Shown here: positions 4,355 through 23,441 of the stretch, one piece after another | How the letters are laid out: each line of letters opens with the position of its first letter | Numbering within the stretch: position 1 is the first letter of the stretch | NCBI RefSeq assembly: GCF_022026155.1 | Contig: NZ_CP085041.1 | Coordinates: 1,644,306 to 1,708,305, forward strand | Direction of reading: 5' to 3' | DNA: 64,000 bases | Source of the DNA: Dissulfurimicrobium hydrothermale | GTDB lineage: Bacteria; Desulfobacterota; Dissulfuribacteria; Dissulfuribacterales; Sh68 | Notes under the pieces: model-generated | Told to the model about the DNA's origin: nothing | The model's database searches: none | The model's input: only the letters and a program-made list of their open reading frames with translations | Translations under genes and position numbers: made by a program

Positions 4355-5251
4355 TTAAGAAGACATGCTGCGCCAAAGGTCTTCGATCCCTCGTGCCTTT
4401 GCCTTGACCGACTTCTTTATCTCATCAAAAGCGTCGTCGCATATAGCCAGACGTCCCAACACCATCGGATCAATCTCTTTTTCAGGCTTATTTACTACTG
4501 TCGCGCCCATGTAGTGCACCAAATAATCGGCCAGCGCTATCCTTACCAGATAATCAGGCGGATCAAGCTCGAGAAATGGATCATGATGCCTCAGGGCGAC
4601 TATCTGAAACGGCTCGGGGAGCCCCCATCTTTCAGCCAGTCTGGCACCCCAAAGCTGGTGATCGACCCCCCATAGCCATTCAGCCTCCTGCCTAGTGGTG
4701 CCTTCCTCCTCCGCGAGCCTAATCATGACCATCGGTGCCTGCGCCATAAGTACCAGCCATCCGATATCGTGTAACAGCCCGAGTGTATAAAGATCGGCCT
4801 CTTCCCCGCCATCAGGCGCAAGGTCTTGTGCTATGACAGCGGTAGCGATAAGGTGCCTCCAGAGGGCCTCGGCGTAAAGGCGAACCTCGGGGGCTACGGT
4901 CAAGAAACGCTCTGACATGACGACCCCAAATGTGATTCTTACTATCTCTTTGAAACCGAGAAGCGATATCGCGTGTTTTATGGATGTAACCTCTACCCCT
5001 ATGGAATAAAATGCATTATTTACAACCTTGAGCACCCTGATCGCCATGGTGGGGTCTCGGCTTATAATATCGGCCAGATCAGATATCTTTTTTTTGTCAT
5101 CGCTTGCAACCGCAAGTAGTTTATGGACAACTGAAGGAAGGGTTGGTAGGTCTTCTCCCGCCCAGTCTATGGTCAAAATCTGTCTGCAAGACCTTGCCAT
5201 CAACAAGTCCGCCTTCAAGCAATTCAAAAAACCCATGCCTGGCCTATCCAT
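4355..5251 (-). CDS. HDOD-domain signalling protein
   Basis: About 298 residues. An HDOD domain fills residues about 30-225, with typical segments LPTLPSVVHKLLAV, IISRDPTMAIRVLKVVN, NAFYSIG, AISLLGF and the relic HD motif LLHDIGW. HDOD proteins are regulatory and usually lack phosphodiesterase activity; many act in motility, chemotaxis or surface-associated signalling. No other signalling gene is adjacent, so the role is unknown. The start is uncertain: Met codons at 5251, 5236 and about 5200 are possible and none has a clear ribosome site. Confidence 0.82.
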   Translation of the reverse strand: MDRPGMGFLNCLKADLLMARSCRQILTIDWAGEDLPTLPSVVHKLLAVASDDKKKISDLADIISRDPTMAIRVLKVVNNAFYSIGVEVTSIKHAISLLGFKEIVRITFGVVMSERFLTVAPEVRLYAEALWRHLIATAVIAQDLAPDGGEEADLYTLGLLHDIGWLVLMAQAPMVMIRLAEEEGTTRQEAEWLWGVDHQLWGARLAERWGLPEPFQIVALRHHDPFLELDPPDYLVRIALADYLVHYMGATVVNKPEKEIDPMVLGRLAICDDAFDEIKKSVKAKARGIEDLWRSMSS

Positions 5252-5496
5252 TCAATTGCCCAACCAACCGGATAGAGGCTGTGGACAGGATATCCATATT
5301 AAAAGGAGTCCAACCGGAACAGCAGCACAGAGGTTTTTTATTTCTATCACAAAATGAACATGAATCTCATAATTTTTATACTATTTCATCTAACAAATGG
5401 CAACGGATTTATTTATTGCATGCCTTTATTGCAGCCTCTTATCCAATAAAAATGCATCCCGACAGAAAGATCATAATCCTTTTCAGTTTTATAGTT

Positions 5497-5576
5497 TTAA
5501 AACAGCCACTTAAGCCCTGCCCAAAATGTCCTTGCCGGCATCGGATAGTTAGGACGTAAACGTAGTTCCTATCAAA
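5497..5576 (-). pseudogene. Remnant of the 3-prime end of a TonB-dependent receptor gene
   Basis: On the minus strand, about 26 codons ending at a TAA (5497-5499) read LFDRNYVYVL, then after a one-base loss YPMPARTFWAGLKWLF. This matches the C-terminal beta-strand of the intact receptor at 6796-8796 (LFDRAYQYVLSYPMPGRT...RWLF) more closely than that of the receptor at 21182. It ends in Phe as outer-membrane beta-barrels do. Nothing of the rest of the gene remains; upstream it is joined directly to the permease remnant. From 5252 to 5496, between this scar and the HDOD gene, I see no gene, RNA or clear promoter. Confidence 0.72.
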
Positions 5577-5691
5577 ATAGACAGCACCTCAAAAAAAACG
5601 ACGGGTTGTATGCCCCCATAAATATGGAAAACATACCTGCAAGGATCGGGGACAAAAGCACTATCCATACCACCGGCCTTTTACTGCGCAA
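5577..5691 (-). pseudogene. Remnant of the 5-prime end of a FecCD-type ABC permease gene
   Basis: The first codons of a permease, starting with TTG at 5691 inside the end of the binding-protein gene exactly as in the intact copy (20199). It reads MRSKRPVVWIV and on to the first membrane segment, nearly as in the intact permease. It then has eight T residues where the intact copy has six, which breaks the frame. Homology ends at about 5577, where a receptor-gene tail is fused. The remaining nine-tenths of the permease are missing. This is a deletion scar of a former receptor-binding protein-permease locus. Confidence 0.8.
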
Positions 5692-5847
5692 TTTTATCTA
5701 TCTCCCCATAGGAAACCCCGAAGACATTCCTGTAAAAGCGGTCAACCACACCATCGAAATCTACGTCCTTGAAATATTCCGGATAGGTCTTCATGGCCAT
5801 CCAGAGGGCGATGGGCGCAAGCCTCGGAGACCATGTCGACCATTCAG
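5604..5847. repeat. 244-bp identical block, copy 1 (partner 20112-20355)
   Basis: Every base I compared is identical to 20112-20355 in the same orientation. The block covers the last 50 or so codons of the binding-protein gene plus the start of the permease remnant. Outside it, the two loci diverge at once. Identity at synonymous sites next to strongly diverged flanks points to recent gene conversion or a recombination event rather than to conservation by selection. Confidence 0.9.
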
Positions 5848-6754
5848 GGGCCTTATAGACCCTGCCGTCTTTTACCGCCTTTATACACCTCCACTGGGGG
5901 TTATTAAGGATGTCCAGGGCCTTATATGGCGCATATCCCCAGATGAAGATTACATCAGGATTCCAGGCGATTATCTTCTCCATGGATACATCGGCGCTCC
6001 CGCCCCAGCCTTGTGTAATAGATGATGCGGGATTTACCGCACGGATCTCCTTGAGCACGTCGGCCAGGAGGCTGCCCTTACATGCAACGCTTGTCGGTCT
6101 CCCTCCGTAGTAAACCCAGAGGACCCTTCTTATCTTGTCGGCAGGTATCCTGGACACCCTTTTCTGAATGAGCCTGAAGATCCCTTCCATCTCGTTGATG
6201 GTCTTCTCTGCCTCTCTTCCCCTCCCAAACAGCCTTCCAAAAAGATCTATCACACCATAGAATTCATGAAGGGTCTTCGGGTTTATCTCTATGACCCTCA
6301 ATCCGTTTTGCTCCATGAATCTTACCGTCTCATGGGAGTATGACCATGTAATGACAATATCGGGCCTGAGTCTAAGGAGCGCCTCTATGTTCACATCAGC
6401 CATGCCGCTGGCTACAGGTACGACATTGTCCTTCCAGTCCGGCTTTGCGGCCTTGAGCAGATTATCATGAGCATATGTATAAGTGCTGACGCCGACGACC
6501 TTGTCCCAGATATTCAGAGCAGGGATCAAATCACTGGGACCTACGAGGATTACGGCTCGTTTCACAGGGACCTGTATCTTGACAGCCCTGCCTAGATAGT
6601 CCTGACAGGTTATTTCCGCAGCCCACGATATGGACGCCGAATATATCAAGGCCAGAGGCAACAGAGACATGATCAACCGCACCCCTGCGCGTCCGCCGAC
6701 AGCAATGACACTTTTCCACAGCCGCCATTGCGGGGGGCGCCTATGCCCAGCCAT
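5681..6754 (-). CDS. Periplasmic substrate-binding protein of a cobalamin/siderophore-type ABC importer
   Basis: About 357 residues with a signal-peptide-like hydrophobic run (about residues 24-45, ending near SWAA). The TroA/BtuF-like fold is supported by YLGRAVKIQVPVKRAVIL, a mid-protein LRPDIVITW and NPDVIFIWG. It follows the riboswitch-controlled receptor gene with a 41-base gap, so it most likely delivers cobalamin or another corrinoid (BtuF-like role). Its own permease downstream is destroyed, so it must borrow the permease at 19192-20199 or be an orphan. The last 60 residues are almost identical to the second binding protein (20189-21178) whereas the rest is only moderately similar. 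Start is uncertain: ATG at 6754 or 6670, or the TTG six bases before the latter. Confidence 0.85.
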   Translation of the reverse strand: MAGHRRPPQWRLWKSVIAVGGRAGVRLIMSLLPLALIYSASISWAAEITCQDYLGRAVKIQVPVKRAVILVGPSDLIPALNIWDKVVGVSTYTYAHDNLLKAAKPDWKDNVVPVASGMADVNIEALLRLRPDIVITWSYSHETVRFMEQNGLRVIEINPKTLHEFYGVIDLFGRLFGRGREAEKTINEMEGIFRLIQKRVSRIPADKIRRVLWVYYGGRPTSVACKGSLLADVLKEIRAVNPASSITQGWGGSADVSMEKIIAWNPDVIFIWGYAPYKALDILNNPQWRCIKAVKDGRVYKAPEWSTWSPRLAPIALWMAMKTYPEYFKDVDFDGVVDRFYRNVFGVSYGEIDKIAQ

Positions 6755-6795: not shown

Positions 6796-8796
6796 TCAAA
6801 ACAGCCACCTTGCCCCGACGGCTATAGTCCTGCCAGGCATGGGATAGCTCAGGACATATTGATACGCCCTGTCAAAGAGGTTTTCCACAGACGCCGTAAG
6901 TTCAAGGTGTTTTATAGGTCTATAGGAGCCTTTTATACTGACGACGGTAAAGCCACCCTTGTTTACCACGACCTTTCCATACGATGGCGGGCTCCAGTCC
7001 TGCACCTTTTCACCCCCTGTGTAATTTGCAATGAGCCTGGCGTCCCACCTCTCCTGACCGGCCTTCACGCCGAACGCCCCGGTCCATCTGGGGGTATAGA
7101 GAAGCGTTTTTCCGTATTTGCCGATCTCAAGCTCGTCCTTGCTCGAATATCTTGTGAGGTAGGTGATATTGGCAAACGGCTCAATGGATAGATTTAACCC
7201 GGCCGCCAGCCCCGCATCATAAGAGATATTGGCCTCAATGCCCTGGATGGCCGCCCCGTCAACGTTTTTAAAGGTCTGGGCCTTGAGCGCACCGTCGTAA
7301 TAGCTCAATATCTTGTCTTTAAAGTCCGTATGAAAGAATGTGAGACCACTCTTAAAAAGACCTTTTGAATACCCAAGCCCTGCGTCATATGTCGTGCTCT
7401 TCTCAGGTCTTAGACCCGGATTCCCGATATAATGCGTCCCCCAATCTGATACATAGTCTGTCGCCAGCTCGTCAGGCGCAGGCGCACGGAAGGCAGTGCC
7501 AATGCTTCCCTTGAGCTCGAAGCTATCTGTGACTTTATATACCAGCCCACCCCTTTCCGTCACATGGTCCAAGGTTTCCTCCCTTGGATTAAGGCCCTTT
7601 ATACCTGCTGTTGAAAGTATCTTGTCCTCGAAATAGTCATAACGAAGCCCTGCACTCAGCAAAAGTTTTTTATTGAGCAGACTGAGCCTGCCTTCTGTAA
7701 ATGCGCCATAGCTGTCATATCTTGAATTCGGGCTATAAGGCGCACCTATGTTTCTCGAACTATCAACCTCTATCCTGTCCCATTGGCCGCCTGTGACAAG
7801 CCTGAAGTCACCGCCAAGATCGAATGTCTTTTGAAGATTAGCCCCCTGCGTATATGTATCTATCGATGTGATATTTGAGTTGCCGGGGCCGAAATTCATG
7901 CCCCCATGCCATTCGCCCTTTTCGGTTACGTGATAATAGCCTGCGTCGATCGTTTTTGTCTTGTATTCCACATCAACGCCGTCCCTTTCCTTCCTGTCAA
8001 AATTATCAGGATCAGGGGCATATCTCGGCCCTGGAGAGCCTATGGCCCATCCCCTCCAGTGCTGAAGGCCCATGGATATGTGATGGCCGTCGAGAAACTT
8101 GTAACCCAGACGTAGCGACGCCGTCTCGTCGTTATAAGCCGTATTCCTAATCCTGCCGTAGTTCCTGGTATCATAGTCATCCTCTGACGAACGGCTGCCG
8201 GAGAAATAAAAATCAAAGGGCCCCTTCTTTCCGCTCAGCTCCGCCTCTGGTCTCCAGTAGTCGTATGAGCCGGCCTCGCCGCCAATGGAGCCGTGGACGC
8301 CCTCTTTTCTCCCTTCTTTTGTTATGACGTTGATGACACCACCCATTGCAGAAGAGCCGTAGAGGACAGATGCAGGGCCTTTTACTATCTCAATCCTTTC
8401 GATATCGTCAACAGGTATCTCTGCAAGATTTACCGTGCCTGCATAATGGCCATTGATAAGGACAAGCACCCTGCTTTTCAGCTCACTCATAAGATCTGTT
8501 GTCAGGCCTCTCAATTCAATTCTGCCTGTAAGTGCGCCTGGATATTTGTGGACATGGCCGATCCCAGCCTCTGCAATGAGGTCTCCGGCATCCCTGGCGG
8601 TAGAATTCTTTATGTCTTCCTGGGTGATTACCTGGACAGATGCAGGGACGTCTTTTTCAGGCTCCGCAATCTTTGTTGCAGTTACGACGACCTCGCCCAA
8701 TGGCATGGCCGCTTCATCTGCAGACGCAGAAGCGGCAAAAAGGATAAGAACCAAGGAAAAAATAAGATTTATTGCTGAAAATAGCGTATTTTTCAT
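6796..8796 (-). CDS. btuB: TonB-dependent outer-membrane receptor under cobalamin riboswitch control (BtuB-like)
   Basis: About 666 residues. Signal peptide at residues 1-26 (ends SASA), a TonB box like GEVVVTATK, a plug domain (PASVQVITQEDI, then LRGLTTDL, RIEIVKGPASVLYGSSAMGGVINVIT) and a beta-barrel ending in a terminal Phe (RWLF). The start at 8796 follows GGGAGGAAGAG; longer readings would run into the riboswitch. The upstream B12 riboswitch is the main reason to call it a corrinoid receptor; plug and barrel alone do not reveal the ligand. The binding-protein gene at 5681-6754 follows in the same unit. Confidence 0.9.
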   Translation of the reverse strand: MKNTLFSAINLIFSLVLILFAASASADEAAMPLGEVVVTATKIAEPEKDVPASVQVITQEDIKNSTARDAGDLIAEAGIGHVHKYPGALTGRIELRGLTTDLMSELKSRVLVLINGHYAGTVNLAEIPVDDIERIEIVKGPASVLYGSSAMGGVINVITKEGRKEGVHGSIGGEAGSYDYWRPEAELSGKKGPFDFYFSGSRSSEDDYDTRNYGRIRNTAYNDETASLRLGYKFLDGHHISMGLQHWRGWAIGSPGPRYAPDPDNFDRKERDGVDVEYKTKTIDAGYYHVTEKGEWHGGMNFGPGNSNITSIDTYTQGANLQKTFDLGGDFRLVTGGQWDRIEVDSSRNIGAPYSPNSRYDSYGAFTEGRLSLLNKKLLLSAGLRYDYFEDKILSTAGIKGLNPREETLDHVTERGGLVYKVTDSFELKGSIGTAFRAPAPDELATDYVSDWGTHYIGNPGLRPEKSTTYDAGLGYSKGLFKSGLTFFHTDFKDKILSYYDGALKAQTFKNVDGAAIQGIEANISYDAGLAAGLNLSIEPFANITYLTRYSSKDELEIGKYGKTLLYTPRWTGAFGVKAGQERWDARLIANYTGGEKVQDWSPPSYGKVVVNKGGFTVVSIKGSYRPIKHLELTASVENLFDRAYQYVLSYPMPGRTIAVGARWLF

Positions 8797-8836
8797 CTCT
8801 TCCTCCCTCGAGAAGTCTGTTGTTGAGTTTTCATGG

Positions 8837-8995
8837 TCTGGATAGGTCTTCCGGCTTAAGGGCAACGTCAATTTCCTACTCGCCCGCCTTCCCATCATGG
8901 TGTTACCCAGGACAGTGGCTTTAAATCGGGCTTTCGTTCCCTTTTACGGCTGCGGGGCAGCGGGAGAATCACACTCCTCTTCCCTGGCATCCAAA
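8837..8995 (-). ncRNA. Cobalamin (adenosylcobalamin) riboswitch
   Basis: Read on the minus strand, the conserved core is present in order: a P1 stem (TTTGGAT at 8995-8989 pairing with ATCCAGA at 8843-8837), AGGGAAG, CGCTGCCCCGCAGCCGT, a GAAAGCC element, GCCACTG, TGGGAAGGCG and the B12 box AAGCCGGAAGACCT near the 3-prime end. It lies 40 bases before the receptor start codon. There is no clear terminator hairpin after it, so control of ribosome access is the likelier mode, with corrinoid lowering expression. It does not precede the long operon, which starts near 23.4 kb and ends at 9084. Confidence 0.95.
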
Positions 8996-9083
8996 CTATA
9001 GTATTTTTAGAAATTCCTTATCGATTTAAAAAACATGCGGTAATCGCCTGCAATCACCCCCCTTCAAAACCGTATACAACTGG

Positions 9084-10973: not shown

Positions 10974-11989
10974 GCCCGCAGAACCCCGGTAAGCGCTGTC
11001 TCAAGCCTTTCCATACCTACCCCCATCTCTTCAAATGGAAGCCTCTTCATTCTGTGGCTCAGGGCGAGCTGGGCCACATCCCTGATGTCATCATCGCTTA
11101 TGGACACCCTGCCCCTGAAGGCGGCCAGGGCCATTGCCGCCTTCATCATCACGATATCGGCCCTGTGGCCATCGAGCTCAAGCGAGGTGGTGACGCCTAC
11201 GATTCTTTCAAGTGCAGCATCAGGAGGTATGATACGGCCGAGCCTCCCCTTTGCCGCCATGATCCCCTTTGAAAGCCCATCCTGTTCGGGCTGCCAAACA
11301 GCTGCAAATGCCTCTGGATCGGCATCAAAGGCGGCCCTTCGTCTGAGTATCTCTACCCTCTTCGCCTTGTCCTGGATCGATCCAACCTGCACGCACAGGC
11401 CGAACCTGTCCAGGAGCTGCGGCCTTAGGTCACCTTCCTCAGGGTTCATCGTTCCTACAAGAATAAACCTTGCAGGATGCGTAAAGGACACCCCCTCCCT
11501 TTCGACCGTATTTACCCCCATGGCCGCCGAGTCCAGCAACAGATCCACAATATGGTCTTCAAGGAGATTCACCTCATCGACGTATAAGAAATTCCTGTTT
11601 GCAGCGGCAAGTATCCCGGGCTCAAATCTCTTTTCGCCTTTTTTGATGGCGTGTTCGATATCGAGCGTGCCTATCAGCCTGTCTTCCGTGATACCGAGCG
11701 GGAGCTCGACGACCTCCATCTTCTTTCTTTCACGTTCAAGACTGCCTTCGCTCTCCAATATCTCCCTGCACCCGCTGCAAAGAAGACCGTCCGGATCGCA
11801 GTTAAAAGGACACCCTTTCACCACATCGATCTCAGGGAGGAGTTCGGCAAGCGCCCTCACTGCCGTGCTTTTGGCGGTCCCCTTCTCGCCCATTATCAAC
11901 AACCCGCCTATCGATGGGTTTATCACGTTCAATATCAATCCGGTCTTCATCTCATCCTGGCCGACTATCGCAGTAAACGGGAATATCAT
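10970..11989 (-). CDS. ChlI/BchI-like chelatase ATPase subunit
   Basis: About 339 residues, AAA+. P-loop GEKGTAKST, Walker [21 protein letters not shown], and sensor region [20 protein letters not shown] are close to the Mg-chelatase I subunit. A four-Cys cluster (CPFNCDPD...CSGC) of the kind found in this branch sits at about residues 59-75. It should power the neighbouring CobN-type subunit together with the ChlD-like protein. The gene overlaps the CobN C-part by four bases and has its own GGAGGAGG site seven bases before the ATG. ATP-driven metal insertion is the known role of the family; the metal here is not known. Confidence 0.92.
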
Positions 11990-13500
11990 TTAAGGACCTC
12001 CTCCATCTTTTTCTTCCATGCCTCCACCTCTTCCTTAGTGACAATATCTATGCCGCCTCCCTGAAAATCGCCCTTAATATCACCCATCCGTTCCTCGATC
12101 CACCCCTCTATCTCCACATACAACTGGGTCAGGGCCTCCTTGACATCTGGCGCAGGGTCCCACAGGCCCCGCTGAGCCACCTCCATCAGTCTCCTTGCCA
12201 TCTCCTCCAGCGCCCATGGATTGTTCTCTTCAAAGAATCTTCTGTTCTCCTCATCCATCATGAAGGTGCGGGCTATCTCATCGAATATCCAGTCATCCAC
12301 CTCTTGAGTGGTCGCCTCCCATCCATAGACCCTCCCCACCCTTTGCGAGATATCGCCAGCGCCCTTGTATCCATGCCTCTTCATCCCCTCAATCCACTTC
12401 GGATTGAGCAGTTTGCTCCTGACCACCCTTCTTATCTCGTCCGCCAGGTCGCGCACCTCGACGTGTTCCGGCTCCCTCGTATCGCCGTAATAGGTCTTGA
12501 CCTCCTTGCCGGAGATGGTCCTTGCCGCTGCGGTCATCCCCCCGTGGGTCCCGAAATAGCAGCAGCAGCCGAAGAGGTCGTATTCGTCCGTTACGACCTT
12601 GTTGTAGGTGACGTCAACGGTCTTGAGATTTTCGGCCAATTGTCTGTGTCTTTCAGCGCCGAATATCCCTTTGCCGTAGGCATAACCGTTCCAATAGACA
12701 AACACATCGGAGAGGTCCTTTTCTTCCTTCCAGGCGGATGCATATACGGCAAGATTGACGCCGGCCTGATAGGTGCCTGGCTTTGAGGCGAATATACGAA
12801 GCGTTGCGTCGCGCCACACGTCTTTAGATGATCGGTCATCATCCCCGATCCGGGCCAGCGTATGTCTTCTTATATGGTTCATGTCAAGCGGCTCATCCAA
12901 TGAGGCGACCGCCTGTACGGCCTCGTCCAGGAGTTCCATGCAATTTGGAAAGTTGTCCCTCGTTATGCCTGAGACACGAATTGTCAGGTCTATCCTCGGC
13001 CTGCCCAACTCGGCAAGCGGGATTATCTCAAACCCCTTTACCCTTCCGTTGGAAAGCCATACAGGTCTCACCCCGAGGAGATACATCATCTGGGACATCC
13101 CCTCGCCATCCGCCCACATGATGTCGCTGCACATCCAGAAGATAGCGATATTTTCAGGATACCTGCCTTCTTCGCTCAGATGTTTTTCAATTACGGCATC
13201 CGCCAGCCTCCGCCCAACTTCCCACGCGGCCTTCGTCGGGATTTTATAAGGATCTAGAGAATAGAAATTTCTCCCGGTCGGCAGGATGTCGTCCCTGCCG
13301 CGTGTGATGAGCCCGGATGGCCCGGCAGGGACATATCCTGCCTCAAAGCCATGCAGCAGGGCATCTATCTCCCTTGATTCCTCGATTCTCCTGTTTAGAT
13401 CGAGTATCCTTTTCTTGATCTTTATCCATGGGTAAGTATTCCACTTGACATTTACGCCTTTGGCAATATCCAGCAATGCATCTCCATCCGCGTTGAACAT
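11986..13500 (-). CDS. cobN: CobN/BchH-family chelatase, C-terminal part
   Basis: About 504 residues, equal to the C-terminal third of a CobN-type chelatase. Diagnostic segments are [42 protein letters not shown] and [19 protein letters not shown], then [17 protein letters not shown]. Together with the upstream gene it totals about 1310 residues, the normal size of single-chain CobN. A GTG at 13506 would overlap the previous stop by four bases. The ATG at 13500 sits five bases after GGAGGGG and is preferred. Having its own strong ribosome site argues for a real two-gene arrangement rather than a fresh frameshift. Confidence 0.88.
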
Positions 13501-13502
13501 CT

Positions 13503-15929
13503 TCACCCCTCCATATTTATTACCTCTTCGATCAGTCTTTTCCCTATGCGGTCTATCTCCTCCAAAAGCTCACCATGCCCCTTTTTTCTGACGGGATGGA
13601 CGCCGCCCGGGTTGGAGAGTAGTTCGCTCAAATCCAACCCCATCATCTTCGCAATCTCACGCCTCAATGAAACATCTTCACCGGCGTCATATCTCAAGAT
13701 CGAATAGATAAAACCTGCCCTCCTTTCTCCTTCAGGCAATTCTCCGAATACATGCATACCGTCCTGAATCTGGGTGTTTCTTGTCCTCGACAATGCGCCG
13801 TGGGCCTCCCTGACTATTTCGTCAAAGGGCAAGGCGTGAAGTCCTTCGTCGTCCAATTCACAAAGCCCCACCCTTTTGACCCTTCCCGTCCCTTTATCGA
13901 CGGTAGAGACCTTTATCTCCTTATCCAGGTTCGTCTTCTTTATTGCATCCATTATGAGATGCTCAAGGGCATGGACCCTGGCCTTATCCAGACCCTTCAC
14001 CTGTTCGTATTCGCCCAGAAATCGTCCCAGCTCCTCCAGTTCCTCATACACCCCCCCTTGTGTCATCACCGTCTGCATGTGGTCAACAAGGGTCGCATAA
14101 CTACGACGTTTTGCAATTGTGCCCTCTGGCGGGTTGTCGGCATTGTAGATATAGAGATGAGGGATATGACCTATAGCTATATCGGGGTAGCAGTCTCCTG
14201 AAAGGGCCGTGCCTTTGCCCGGCAGGAACTCAAGATTCCCATGGGTTCCGACATGAACGATCGCATCCGCCTTGAAGTCATACTCAAGATAGCGATAGGT
14301 CGCCATGTATTGGTGAGGCGGGGGGACATCAGGGTCATGGAGTATCTTACATACCCTGCCGTCACACCTGGCGCCTGCGCAACCACGCTTTGGCTGTACG
14401 CATACCACTGCATTCCCATAATCAACCCCTGTCACAAGGATCTTTCCATCATGGACCATGGCGGCAGGAATCCCATCTTTTTCTACCCCAGGAGGATCGC
14501 CCCAGGCCTCGCACACCCTCTTTCTTACGGTTTCAGACAGGGCATTGAACCACTCCTCGTATTCCTCCTTCGTCACCATCTTCAATACGCCACCCTTTTC
14601 TACGATTTCATCGGTTGTCGTCCACCTGAATTCTGATATCGCCTTTCGATTCATTATGGCATCAATGAGTTCCTTGCCGTCCTTCGGTGGAACGACATCA
14701 TAACCCGCCGCCTTCATTTTATTTATTATCCTTGCGACAGACTCCAGGGTATCGAGATGAGCGCCCGCCCCGACAGTTGCCTCGACTGATGCGCATGGAT
14801 TATTATGGAGCATAAAGGCTATCTTACGCCTACCTACAGGCCTTCTTTTCAATCTTATCCAGTTTGCCACCCGTCTTGCCAATTTTCCCATTCTTTCTTC
14901 AAAGGCAATGCGTTTATCGCCTCCTTTTTCTTTGAGCCCGCCTATAATTATCGGCTCTATCCTGCCCTCGAACTCCGGCATCGCAATAGACCAGCCGATG
15001 CTGCTTCCATCCGTGCCATGGGGGTCACTCCACCACTCCTCCATTGTCTTATAATAGGATGTGACCGGCATAAACACAGGGACATCGAGCCTTTTAAGTA
15101 TATCCACGCCTTCCAGGGCAACCTTTCCGCCTTCCATGGAGGCTCGGCTTGAACCAATAAGAAACATCTGAAGATTGATGAGGGCATCTATTCTTGGTTT
15201 CCCATCTTTGAGGAAGTATTCGCAGACGACCTCTCCGCTTCCCTTTGTCCCAAGGCCATCGTCCCTTACAGAATATGAAAAGACAGGGATGACGACCAAT
15301 CCAAGGGACTCGACCTTTCTTATCAAGGTATCCTCGATTCCAAGGTTTTTGTTGACCCAGTGAAAACGTGAAAAGAGGAGGCCGACAGCGCCTTCTGTCT
15401 TGGGAAAATCGGGTTTTCTTTTGTATAAACCATACCATTTCAGGTAATTTTCGATATTGTCAAAGATATCCGGCGCATCGGGATGATACAGCCCTTCCCA
15501 CGGGATCGGCTTTGGCGGCTCTACATCAATATCCACTCCACAGACTGCGTTAGCGATATAGCAGAGCATTTGAATAAAATTTTCCTCTCCGTTATAGGTT
15601 ATATAGGTATGAACCCTGGCCACAATATCCGGTTTTACATTAGACATGGCCCAGTACGACGGGTCATGACCGACGCATATTATCGGTACGGATTTTCCTA
15701 TCTCATTCAGGCTCTTTTCTATAACATCCCATATGGATTCTGTTGAACGATAAAGCAGGATTACATCTGCCTCCTCAGCCTCTTTAAGTACAACGCCTAT
15801 ATCTTCATGCCCTTCATCAAGATATCTTGATGAATAAACCCCTACATCTATAATCCCTTCCAAGGCCTTGCCCGCCCTTTTAAGTGTTCCAGAATGCGAA
15901 TGCCACATGATAGATAATATCTTTTTCAT
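13503..15929 (-). CDS. cobN: CobN/BchH-family chelatase, N-terminal part
   Basis: About 808 residues, starting MKKILSIMWHSHSGTLKRA after a CAGGAG site. It carries the family core: VGTHGNLEFLPGKGTALSGD, HLYIYNADNPPEGTIAKRR and VDHMQTVMTQGG, at about residues 560-640. A cysteine group (CVQPKRGCAGARCDGRVC) lies just before. It has no signal peptide, so it acts in the cytoplasm, presumably on a tetrapyrrole delivered by the ABC importer of the same operon. Known relatives are the aerobic cobaltochelatase CobN, Mg-chelatase ChlH and the HmuS proteins of heme uptake loci of Bacteroidota. The sequence alone does not choose among these. Confidence 0.9.
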   Translation of the reverse strand: MKKILSIMWHSHSGTLKRAGKALEGIIDVGVYSSRYLDEGHEDIGVVLKEAEEADVILLYRSTESIWDVIEKSLNEIGKSVPIICVGHDPSYWAMSNVKPDIVARVHTYITYNGEENFIQMLCYIANAVCGVDIDVEPPKPIPWEGLYHPDAPDIFDNIENYLKWYGLYKRKPDFPKTEGAVGLLFSRFHWVNKNLGIEDTLIRKVESLGLVVIPVFSYSVRDDGLGTKGSGEVVCEYFLKDGKPRIDALINLQMFLIGSSRASMEGGKVALEGVDILKRLDVPVFMPVTSYYKTMEEWWSDPHGTDGSSIGWSIAMPEFEGRIEPIIIGGLKEKGGDKRIAFEERMGKLARRVANWIRLKRRPVGRRKIAFMLHNNPCASVEATVGAGAHLDTLESVARIINKMKAAGYDVVPPKDGKELIDAIMNRKAISEFRWTTTDEIVEKGGVLKMVTKEEYEEWFNALSETVRKRVCEAWGDPPGVEKDGIPAAMVHDGKILVTGVDYGNAVVCVQPKRGCAGARCDGRVCKILHDPDVPPPHQYMATYRYLEYDFKADAIVHVGTHGNLEFLPGKGTALSGDCYPDIAIGHIPHLYIYNADNPPEGTIAKRRSYATLVDHMQTVMTQGGVYEELEELGRFLGEYEQVKGLDKARVHALEHLIMDAIKKTNLDKEIKVSTVDKGTGRVKRVGLCELDDEGLHALPFDEIVREAHGALSRTRNTQIQDGMHVFGELPEGERRAGFIYSILRYDAGEDVSLRREIAKMMGLDLSELLSNPGGVHPVRKKGHGELLEEIDRIGKRLIEEVINMEG

Positions 15930-19191: not shown

Positions 19192-20199
19192 TCAGCCCTT
19201 AAAAAGGCCCTTTTCGCCCCTTCTCATGAGATACATAAAAAACGGCGCCCCGGAGATCGCCGTGATTATACCAACGGGTATCTCAAGGTTTGACATGCCC
19301 CTTGAGATGGTATCCGCAAGGATCATGAATGCGGCGCCCCCTGCAATGCTCAATGGAAGAAGCATCTTGTGATCAGGGCCGCTCATCATCCTTATTAGAT
19401 GCGGGACCATAAGCCCCACCCAACCTATGATCCCGCTTACCGATACGGCGATGCTTACTACAAGGGATGTCGAACCGATAAGCATCATCCGCTCCATTCT
19501 TACATTTACCCCTAGCGCCCTTGCCTCATCGTCTCCCATGCTGATGGCGTTCAGTCTCCAGCGCATGAAAAAGACCGGGGACATCCCGATGACAACACCC
19601 AGAAAGGCGATCCTTACAGAGCGCCAGTCAGAGAGAGAAAAGCTCCCCATCAGCCAGAAGACTATGCTTTGCAGCCTGTTCGGATCGACCATGAACTTGA
19701 CTATAGATAGCATGGCAGTAAAAAAAGATGACACCACCACGCCTGAGAGGACGAGAGACAGCCTCAATATCTCGCCCTGGGCGCTTGCCATAAGGAAGGT
19801 CAGGGCAACCGCCAGCATCCCGAAGAAAAAGGCGCTGACCTGAACAGGTATCCATGGCAGAAAACCGATGGAGACCGCGCAACCAAAGGCGGCCCCTGCT
19901 GAGATGCCAAGTAGATACGGGTCCACCAGGGGGTTCCTGAATATCCCCTGAAGCGCGGCCCCTGAGCCGGAAAGGGCGACGCCCACAAGCCCTGCAAGGA
20001 GTATCCGCGGAAGCCTTATGTCGAATATGATGGCGGCCTCAGGACGGCTTACCTGGGTCGCGCCTTTGAAAATCCCGTTGAACAGGATCGACAGCACCTC
20101 AAAAAATGACAGGTTGTATGCCCCCATAAATATGGAAAACATACCTGCAAGGATCGGGGACAAAAGCACTATCCATACCACCGGCCTTTTACTGCGCAA
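19192..20199 (-). CDS. FecCD/BtuC-family ABC permease
   Basis: About 335 residues with eight to ten hydrophobic segments. Family signatures include RLPRILLAGLVGVALSGSGAALQGIFRNPLVDPYLLGISAGAAFG and, near the end, GIIGWVGLMVPHLIRM. Substrate class is siderophore, heme or cobalamin. It starts with TTG inside the last codons of the binding-protein gene (11-base overlap), so translation is coupled. It is the only intact permease for two binding proteins and two ATPases in this region. Confidence 0.93.
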   Translation of the reverse strand: MRSKRPVVWIVLLSPILAGMFSIFMGAYNLSFFEVLSILFNGIFKGATQVSRPEAAIIFDIRLPRILLAGLVGVALSGSGAALQGIFRNPLVDPYLLGISAGAAFGCAVSIGFLPWIPVQVSAFFFGMLAVALTFLMASAQGEILRLSLVLSGVVVSSFFTAMLSIVKFMVDPNRLQSIVFWLMGSFSLSDWRSVRIAFLGVVIGMSPVFFMRWRLNAISMGDDEARALGVNVRMERMMLIGSTSLVVSIAVSVSGIIGWVGLMVPHLIRMMSGPDHKMLLPLSIAGGAAFMILADTISRGMSNLEIPVGIITAISGAPFFMYLMRRGEKGLFKG

Positions 20200-20355
20200 T
20201 TTTATCTATCTCCCCATAGGAAACCCCGAAGACATTCCTGTAAAAGCGGTCAACCACACCATCGAAATCTACGTCCTTGAAATATTCCGGATAGGTCTTC
20301 ATGGCCATCCAGAGGGCGATGGGCGCAAGCCTCGGAGACCATGTCGACCATTCAG
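20112..20355. repeat. 244-bp identical block, copy 2 (partner 5604-5847)
   Basis: Same-strand copy of 5604-5847, identical at every base I compared. It spans the 3-prime end of this binding-protein gene and the first codons of the intact permease gene. Sequence similarity falls sharply on both sides. Confidence 0.9.
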
Positions 20356-21178
20356 AGGCCCTGTAAACCCTGTTTTCACGCATCGCCTTTACCGACGCCC
20401 ACTGAGAGCCCTTTGTAACCGTCTCGATCGGATAGCCTGCATTACCCCATATAAATATCACATCAGGACTCCATGTAATAATCCTTTCAAGCGAGACATC
20501 CCTATTCCTCTCCTGTATATCGCCGGCAGGATTTATGCAGCCTATCATCTTAAAGATATCGTTAGTTACGCCTATGCCGCATGCAACCGTAGTGGGCTTG
20601 CCGCCAAGCCACAGGCACCTCTTTCTCTTCTCCTCAGGAATAGTTGCAACCCGCTGTCTGATGAGCCTGAATATCTCCTCCATCTTATTAATGACGAACT
20701 CCGTGCGTTTCTCTCTGTTGAACAGCCTTCCGTGAAGCCTCATCACCTCATAGAGCTCTTCGATACCCTCTGGATAGACGCCGATGACCTTAAGGCCCTT
20801 TTGTTCCATAAATCTCATGATCTCAGGCCTGTATGTCCATGTGATTATGAGATCAGGCTTAAGGGCAAGTATAGCCTCTATGTTGACATTATCCCCTGTG
20901 CCGACTGACGGTATGGTTTTTTCGGCATCCGGCATTGTCGCCTTGAATAGATCGTCATGAGAATAGGCCCATCTGTTTATCCCTGCCACATCATCCCAGA
21001 TATCAAGCGCCGGTATGAGATCATATGTGATAAGAATGACAGCCCTCTTTACCGGCGCATCAACGGTAACCACCCTGCCAAGTTTATCTTTGTATGTGAC
21101 AGTATAAGCCAATACATGACTGATATCCATCAAAGATAATATAACTATCAGGCCTGTAATGACTGTCTGTTTCTTCAT
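20189..21178 (-). CDS. Periplasmic substrate-binding protein of the long operon's ABC importer
   Basis: About 329 residues. Signal peptide at 1-24 (ends VLA). BtuF/FecB-like fold: YKDKLGRVVTVDAPVKRAVIL, ALKPDLIITWTY, TKGSQWASVKAMRENRVY, and a C-terminal DVDFDGVVDRFYRNVFG. The gene begins three bases after the receptor stop and runs into the permease. It is a paralogue of the 5681-6754 protein with an identical C-terminus at DNA level. Ligand: a metal-tetrapyrrole or siderophore; not resolvable from sequence alone. Confidence 0.9.
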   Translation of the reverse strand: MKKQTVITGLIVILSLMDISHVLAYTVTYKDKLGRVVTVDAPVKRAVILITYDLIPALDIWDDVAGINRWAYSHDDLFKATMPDAEKTIPSVGTGDNVNIEAILALKPDLIITWTYRPEIMRFMEQKGLKVIGVYPEGIEELYEVMRLHGRLFNREKRTEFVINKMEEIFRLIRQRVATIPEEKRKRCLWLGGKPTTVACGIGVTNDIFKMIGCINPAGDIQERNRDVSLERIITWSPDVIFIWGNAGYPIETVTKGSQWASVKAMRENRVYRASEWSTWSPRLAPIALWMAMKTYPEYFKDVDFDGVVDRFYRNVFGVSYGEIDKIAQ

Positions 21179-21181
21179 GGC

Positions 21182-23395
21182 CTAAAATTTTATCTCCAGC
21201 TCGCCGAACCACTGTCTTCCAGGCGTCTTGTAGTATGAGTAATAATCTCTATCAAATAAATTATCGATTGAAAAAGACAACTTTGAATAATTCGTCAAAT
21301 TATAGGATATCTTTGTATCAACCACAAAATATGGGTCATAAGATGTATAAACCCCGTTTAATCTGTCTCTGTTTTCATCATCGCCGTATCTCTTGCCGAC
21401 ATATCTTCCGATAACAGATGTCATAATCCTTCCTTCTGTATATTCACAGCCCAGGTTAAACATCTTTTCCGGCACATCCATCATCCTCTTACCCTCTGTT
21501 GATGGTTTTGCTGCATTTTCTTTTATCTTCGCATCTATATATGTAAAATTTGCGAACAGTTTTAATGAATTATACAGCTTCTGTTCCAGCTCAAGCTCTA
21601 TGCCTTTTGACTCCGCCCTTCCTGCATTTATAAGTTCCTGATATTTATCCGTTACTATCTTTCTGTAGATAACGTCTTTCAGATAATTTTCAAAATAGAC
21701 AGCCTTTATCTTTGCCCCTTTCCAAAGCCCCTGTTCAATCCCTGCATCCCATGATGTGGTCTTTTCAGGCTTTAGATTTGGATTTCCTGCATAAGTTATA
21801 CCTGATACTGCTGTCCATGTCCTGTATAACTCATAGACAGTAGGTGGCCTGAATGCCTGCCCTACAGATGTCTTCAATGTCATTTCTTTGAACGGATTAT
21901 ATACAATGGCAAGTTTTGGACTGAATGCAGAGTCAGTATTTGAGCTGCAATCTATTGGATAGCCCTTTGAACCAATCTGATTTATATATCCATCGTATGT
22001 CTTCCACCAGTCCTGCCTTGCTCCGATAAAGAGGGTCAAGTTGTCAAGTATAATGTATTCATCCTGCACAAACAGCGCGAATATCCGATCCTTTCCCTTC
22101 GACTGATATGAAATAGCCCCCTTTTCGTCTTCCACCTGCCAATTAGGCAATTTATGTTCTTTAGTATCTGCCTGCCCCTGTCTGAAGGATGAGCCGAAGG
22201 TGAGTATATGACTGTCCATGACCGGCAGGGTAAACTGGAGGTCACCGCTGTAATTTTTGGACGGTGTGTTTGATACCTTGCCAGGACCGCCAAATCTCGT
22301 TGCAGATGACGAATCGGCCATGGTGTACCATGAATCATCCAGTTCAGAGATCCCAAGGTTCAGTTTTGTCTGAAGGCTTCCGAACCTTGTCTTGTATGAG
22401 ATGTTATAGATATCCTGTTCCTTTCCACCCGGACCTGAAAGATAGGATGCCTCCCTTACCTTGCCATAGGACCACACAGGATCGCCCTTGCCATCCCTCA
22501 GATATGTATGCGGATAGTCGTAATTATATTCGTATCTCGCCCTCATGAACATAAACTCGATTGCCGAGTCCTGAGAGATGTCATAGCCCCCTCTCAGCGT
22601 AAGAGAGTCGTTCCACCACCTGTTGTCGCCGGTATCTCCGATCAGATACCTCGGCTCACCCTTCGGCGTCTTTGAAGACCTGTAACCCGTAACGCCCGCC
22701 GGAGGTCTCGAGCCCTGAAGATCAAGGCCTGCCGGATAGCCCTCGGTGGTCTTGAAGCCATAGCTCAGAAAGAGGCTGAACCGGTCTTTATATCTGTCTC
22801 CATAAGAGACATAATCCGTCCGGAGGTCATCGAGGGCATTGCCCCTGTCCCAGCTTGAGCCATAGCCCGTCTTTAGTTTGAACTCCCTCTTTTGCGGCAA
22901 CTTCGTGATGAGATTGATGACGCCGCCCATTGCATAGCCCCCGTAGAGGCTTGAAAACGGCCCTTCAACCACCTCTATCCTGTCTATGTCTTCAGGCGAA
23001 TAGGCGCCCCATGGGACGCCGCCTGAGTAGGCGTCATTCAAGATGACGCCGTTCAACATGACGAGGTTTCTCTGCTGACCGGATATACCGCGCATGGAGA
23101 CCGCAGCGATGGAATCCAGCATCCCCTTTCCGCGGCTGGAATACACGCCCGGAAGGGTGTTGACGGCCTGATCAATAGACTGGATATCCCTTTTTGACAT
23201 CTCATCCTTTGTCACCACATAGGCCGAACCGGGCGCCGATGACAGGGACTGCTCCGTCCTTGTGGCCGTGACCAGGACATCCTCCAGGGAAATGGCGTCA
23301 TCAGACCCTTCTCCAAGGGCAATACCCGCCATGCCGCCTGATGCCAAAAAAAACATCCCCAAAAAGATATGCGCCAGTATCTTCACCCTCTCCAT
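21182..23395 (-). CDS. TonB-dependent outer-membrane receptor heading the chelatase operon
   Basis: About 737 residues. Signal peptide (first 28 or so, ends in a Gly/Ala-rich stretch), TonB box LEDVLVTATRTEQ, plug domain (SAYVVTKDEM, RIEVVEGPFSSLYGGYAMGGVINLIT) and a 22-strand-type barrel with FRPPTVYELYRTW, NLKPEKTTSWDAG and a terminal Phe. No riboswitch precedes it. An in-frame TTG at 23401 is possible but the ATG at 23395 has GGGGAG ten bases upstream. It is first in a 12-gene run that ends with the ChlD-like gene. The ligand is unknown; heme-, corrinoid- or siderophore-type are all possible. Confidence 0.9.
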   Translation of the reverse strand: MERVKILAHIFLGMFFLASGGMAGIALGEGSDDAISLEDVLVTATRTEQSLSSAPGSAYVVTKDEMSKRDIQSIDQAVNTLPGVYSSRGKGMLDSIAAVSMRGISGQQRNLVMLNGVILNDAYSGGVPWGAYSPEDIDRIEVVEGPFSSLYGGYAMGGVINLITKLPQKREFKLKTGYGSSWDRGNALDDLRTDYVSYGDRYKDRFSLFLSYGFKTTEGYPAGLDLQGSRPPAGVTGYRSSKTPKGEPRYLIGDTGDNRWWNDSLTLRGGYDISQDSAIEFMFMRARYEYNYDYPHTYLRDGKGDPVWSYGKVREASYLSGPGGKEQDIYNISYKTRFGSLQTKLNLGISELDDSWYTMADSSSATRFGGPGKVSNTPSKNYSGDLQFTLPVMDSHILTFGSSFRQGQADTKEHKLPNWQVEDEKGAISYQSKGKDRIFALFVQDEYIILDNLTLFIGARQDWWKTYDGYINQIGSKGYPIDCSSNTDSAFSPKLAIVYNPFKEMTLKTSVGQAFRPPTVYELYRTWTAVSGITYAGNPNLKPEKTTSWDAGIEQGLWKGAKIKAVYFENYLKDVIYRKIVTDKYQELINAGRAESKGIELELEQKLYNSLKLFANFTYIDAKIKENAAKPSTEGKRMMDVPEKMFNLGCEYTEGRIMTSVIGRYVGKRYGDDENRDRLNGVYTSYDPYFVVDTKISYNLTNYSKLSFSIDNLFDRDYYSYYKTPGRQWFGELEIKF

Positions 23396-23441
23396 CCCCA
23401 AAAATCTCCCCTAAAAAATCTTCGCAAAAACCCGAAACGTA

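Follow-up and report, generated by a model that had tools for sequence, protein, structure and literature searches.

The window analysed here is a 64,000-nucleotide stretch (positions 1,644,306–1,708,305) of the Sh68 genome of the heat-loving bacterium Dissulfurimicrobium hydrothermale. Within it, a single-strand run of genes begins with a TonB-dependent receptor (R2), a binding protein (B2), a permease (P2), and two ATPases; proceeds through ExbB, ExbD, TonB, CobN (two genes), and ChlI-like and ChlD-like genes; and continues with a cobalamin riboswitch, a second receptor (R1), a second binding protein (B1), a permease stub, and the tail of a further receptor (R3), after which an HDOD gene follows (Table 1). 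R2, B2, and P2 belong to a canonical R-B-P-A-CobN-ChlI-ChlD cluster (receptor, binding protein, permease, ATPase) that occurs once each in many genomes of the phylum among the loci compared.

Table 1. Features of the R1-B1 and R2-B2-P2 loci, in window coordinates.
Feature	Position	Strand	Basis or remark
HDOD/HD gene, conserved backbone	4355..5251	-	Synteny with sister genus
R3 tail, lost third TonB-dependent receptor, R1-type	5497..5576	-	Last 26 codons and stop; 65% amino acid identity to R1
Diverged end of copied segment, up to R3-tail junction	5577..5603	-	P2-derived codons; T6 to T8, 2–3 substitutions
Exact tract, 244 bp	5604..5847	-	Permease start (5604–5691) overlaps B1 end (5681–5847)
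B1, hybrid BtuF-like periplasmic binding protein (PF01497)	5681..6754	-	N-terminal 302 aa of own lineage, C-terminal 55 aa from B2
R1, TonB-dependent receptor (PF00593/PF07715)	6796..8898	-	BtuB-like by its riboswitch
Cobalamin riboswitch (RF00174) before R1-B1	8824..9009	-	77.4 bits
P2, sole FecCD/BtuC-type permease of the genome, source of stub	19192..20199	-	Profile match and genome-wide count
Donor copy of the 244-bp tract (B2 end/P2 start)	20112..20355	-	Sequence comparison
B2, binding protein of canonical R-B-P-A-CobN-ChlI-ChlD cluster	20189..21178	-	Cluster comparison
R2, TonB-dependent receptor of canonical cluster	21182..23401	-	Cluster comparison

Several peculiarities of the clusters compared may be recorded at this point. 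CobN is encoded in the window as two adjacent genes (11986–15929, minus strand), as it is in the Thermodesulfobacterium-type loci L027, L029, L030, L032, L103, and L109, and it forms one ORF in L100–L102, L107, L108, L110, L111, and L113; the split is an old gene fission and not a recent frameshift. The contig of L029 is binned as Archaeoglobaceae, yet its TonB receptor/ExbBD/CobN cluster is of Thermodesulfobacteriota type; since to our knowledge archaea of the Archaeoglobaceae group lack a TonB outer-membrane system, the archaeal assignment is probably a binning error.

Because the riboswitch overlaps the start of the long, mechanically called R1 ORF, the real start of R1 is probably the downstream MKNTLF. 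Cobalamin riboswitches also precede several R1-type receptors in other genomes; none was detected before the canonical R2-type clusters scanned (L032, L097, L100, L101, and L103). B1 is an intact ORF of 357 aa that matches PF01497 at 88.6 bits against a cut-off of 27.5. Its closest solved relatives are ABC-transporter periplasmic proteins annotated as nickel- or iron-binding (4ls3, 4ino), and no BtuF structure was found among the matches of the B1 sequence to solved structures. Candidate ligands of B1 and B2 are a corrinoid, cobalt, or nickel complex; for B1 the ligand is putatively of B12 type, because R1-B1 follows a cobalamin riboswitch. As P2 is the only FecCD permease left in the genome, B1 probably hands this ligand to P2 in trans.

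The B1 and P2 loci, approximately 14.5 kb apart, share a tract that is 100% identical over 244 bp (offset 14508). On the minus strand it comprises the last 55 codons of B1 and the first ~29 codons of a permease frame. It is the sole direct repeat of at least 40 bp found in positions 1–26000, and a whole-genome search returned these two copies only; additionally, no second copy of the receptor tail or of the permease stub was found elsewhere in the genome. Identity falls to approximately 0.2–0.4 just beyond the tract on the permease side and to 0.48–0.66 in the adjoining 150 bp of the binding-protein side. In-frame comparison of B1 with B2 gives 99.4% nucleotide and 100% third-position identity over the last 55 codons (dS 0), whereas over the 259 codons beyond the tract dS is saturated and the identities are 57% (nucleotide) and 38% (third position). 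Because protein conservation cannot yield such a contrast in third-position identity, a transfer of DNA between the B1 and B2/P2 loci is virtually certain. The initial annotation, made from the sequence of the window, had described the identity of 5604–5847 with 20112–20355 between diverged flanks, a tract spanning the end of a binding-protein gene and the start of a permease, and conversion between the loci; the alignment of the two loci with silent-site counts that it proposed bears this out, with near-identity inside the tract and saturation outside it, and the contrast supports an ectopic, conversion-like transfer.

A repeat of this kind could in principle reflect repeat collapse or a false join in the assembly. 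The Sh68 genome is a hybrid assembly of MinION long reads and 150-nt Illumina reads, built with Unicycler on the short-read graph (PMC8780430). The 244-bp repeat exceeds the length of the Illumina reads, and one or two minor differences between its copies might have been merged in that graph. However, both copies lie on one closed contig to which MinION reads contributed, the unique flanks differ between the two places, and the stub end carries differences of its own beyond the exact repeat. A false join at the scar is thus unlikely in a hybrid long-read assembly, long reads should bridge its layout, and an artefactual origin is regarded as extremely improbable.

The direction of the transfer is given by the conflicting phylogenies of the two parts of B1, as expected of a conversion recipient. 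In a tree of the N-terminal part, B1 and the second Thermodesulfobacterium hydrogeniphilum binding protein (L026) form one group with support of 0.99. In a tree of the C-terminal part, which is based on just 55 residues, B1 and B2 group together with support of 1.0 and the T. hydrogeniphilum protein falls elsewhere. B2 lies among the binding proteins of canonical clusters, whose N-terminal parts resemble B2 more closely than B1. B2-P2 was therefore the donor and B1 the recipient. In T. hydrogeniphilum, the second binding protein is encoded in a receptor-B-CobN locus with no permease beside it, and that genome has a single FecCD permease, yet an R-B pair without its own; its gene content parallels that of Sh68, in which R1-B1 likewise lacks an intact permease of its own and one FecCD permease is present.

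The permease frame of the stub starts at a TTG at 5691 and is broken after codon 33 by a run of eight Ts where P2 has six; these two extra Ts had been recognised earlier, though with the break placed about 38 codons in. The stub, best regarded as dead, codes for a peptide of at most 39 residues that departs from the permease frame. Over the codons NLSFFEVLS, with the 2-nt insertion set aside, stub and P2 share 24/27 bases, the first four of which fall within the exact tract; the orthologues of P2 (n = 21, proteins roughly 56–66% identical) share 6–14/27 with P2 over the same codons. Because this match lies far above the range of the orthologues, the stub is itself derived from P2, and the copying was as recent as that of the exact tract or nearly so. 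An old paralogous permease, aged as the B1/B2 split, would resemble the orthologues; a relic of an older, separate permease is thus not supported, and neither is the initial proposal that the stub descends from the separate permease of a receptor/binding-protein/permease array.

Beyond the stub, translation at 5576–5497 reads FDRNYVYVL / NYPMPARTFWAGLKWLF-stop; a 1-nt deletion, overlooked earlier, shifts the frame after FDRNYVYVL, so the tail is not one open frame. It matches the C-terminus of R1 at 65% identity over 26 aa (E about 1e-11) and those of many R1-type receptors at about 45–67%, and it carries the last-strand motif of TonB receptor C-termini, ending in the aromatic residue F. The earlier description of a junction at about 5577 with the 26 C-terminal codons of a different TonB receptor, and the comparison with receptor C-termini suggested for 5497–5576, thus agree with the present result. 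At RTF and at GLK/GLR the tail has family-typical residues where R1 has others. A decayed duplicate of the R1 tail is disfavoured, as RTF and GLK match the family and not R1. Because the tail follows the family consensus where R1 differs, a third R1-type receptor once existed or was brought in. The genome encodes only two TonB barrels, and the comparison supports a third receptor gene once present whose body is now lost.

A sister genus keeps the gene order up to and including HDOD; synteny ends just past this gene, so the receptor tail adjoins the breakpoint, and the gene that comes next in the sister genus lies approximately 0.5 Mb away in Sh68. Neither a close homologue of the binding protein nor an R1 cluster by HDOD was found in G001, the sole genome of the same family compared, with which synteny ends at HDOD. 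The gap between tail and HDOD (5252–5496), at the breakpoint, is AT-rich (36% GC); six-frame translation of it gave no recognisable frame, and it has no alignable similarity to the upstream region of the sister genus.

These data bear on the initial model, in which deletion collapsed an old array of three or more receptor/binding-protein/permease units that each had a diverged permease, and conversion followed later. Its third receptor stands, given the tail and the two barrels left; the data neither require nor contradict a receptor-permease array. Tandem organisation is known: G170 (L146) carries a true R-B-P-A-R-B-P-A array, in the order R1-type receptor, B-P-A, and R2-B2-P2-A1. (The R1-type receptor there, at L146 6710–8703, lies in two overlapping frames and is possibly broken by the frameshift.) Against an old array, the stub beyond the tract shows less divergence than expected of an old paralogue, no permease is present at the B1-type locus of T. 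hydrogeniphilum, and each canonical cluster in the compared loci has R-B-P just once; as a whole, the model is very improbable.

The best explanation, to which we assign a probability of roughly 0.6, is that positions 5577–5847 are a 271-bp copy of the B2 end and P2 start (from about 20085–20355) laid over the 3′ end of B1 in a single homology-anchored event. One end of the patch would have been anchored by homology within the C-terminal part of the binding-protein gene, and the other, non-homologous end would have come to abut the last 26 codons of R3, by gene conversion or a template switch with an illegitimate far end. The event may have removed the receptor body, or the receptor may have been truncated before the patch was joined to it. 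Later mutations would have given the non-coding end the change from T6 to T8 and two to three substitutions, and the receptor tail would have lost its one nucleotide. Such a copy accounts for the conversion, the stub, and the junction together, and from this we infer one single event. Because the R3 body is gone, no microhomology is diagnosable at the junction of stub and R3. Two findings argue against a single event: identity in the homologous region upstream of 5847 is approximately 60–70%, which is low for RecA-dependent exchange, and the ~3 differences between stub and P2 are all confined to the final 27 of ~104 non-coding bases (p ≈ 0.02), a clustering that better fits an older copy re-homogenised over 5604–5847.

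That clustering lends weak support to the earlier view of conversion as a later, second step. In a two-step history, a B2-P2 copy or a recent R2-B2-P2 tandem duplicate would have been placed after B1, reduced by deletion to a stub joined to R3, and left to decay before the exact tract was re-homogenised; the R-B-P-A-R-B-P-A array of G170 offers a precedent. More events are required, however, and the stub is P2-like even beyond the tract, so its decay cannot have been long; we consider this history rather unlikely. An unequal crossover between B1 and a recent B2-P2 duplicate in a tandem array, producing a hybrid B1 with deletion of the intervening DNA and no conversion proper, would explain the one breakpoint within B1 (5847) and why the permease start still follows in its native order. 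It demands a second, lost B2-P2 copy of which the genome holds no other trace, and is distinctly unlikely.

The patch might also have been favoured by selection: B1, having lost its own permease or never had one, would have taken its last 55 residues from B2 and thereby come to dock on the single shared permease P2. Though this proposal is a long shot, it would, if true, represent a natural domain swap that rewired one receptor/binding-protein pair onto the transporter of another. If the hybrid B1 works with the remaining permease, it would be a case of natural transporter sharing made by domain exchange.

The gene content of the two units resembles the BtuB-BtuF-BtuC-BtuD uptake system in its TonB receptor, Peripla_BP_2 protein, FecCD permease, and ATPases, and in the riboswitch before R1. 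It differs in that the riboswitch unit, R1-B1, lacks an intact permease, while the sole permease sits in the second unit, for which no riboswitch was detected. Gene conversion between bacterial paralogues homogenises tracts of tens to hundreds of bp, and the B1/B2 tract is likewise short, sharply bounded, identical between saturated flanks, and one-way. Unlike such conversion, the copied piece passes the gene end into a permease without counterpart at the target; homology is found at one end of the tract, and on the permease side the sequence enters a receptor unlike the continuation of the donor. Homology-facilitated illegitimate recombination, known from naturally competent species and from Escherichia coli conjugation, similarly integrates a small piece with one homologous and one illegitimate end (PMC3240628). 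The donor here, in contrast, would be the cell's own chromosome (or the DNA of a sib), and the event is known from its scar alone. The junction anatomy, with one homologous and one non-homologous end, fits this process, which may have acted here in a single event. The scar is of an ordinary recombination type. It matters as a well-preserved short ectopic patch that has homology at one end and an illegitimate joint at the other, and it warns that a gene fragment beside a conversion tract is no proof of an older gene array.
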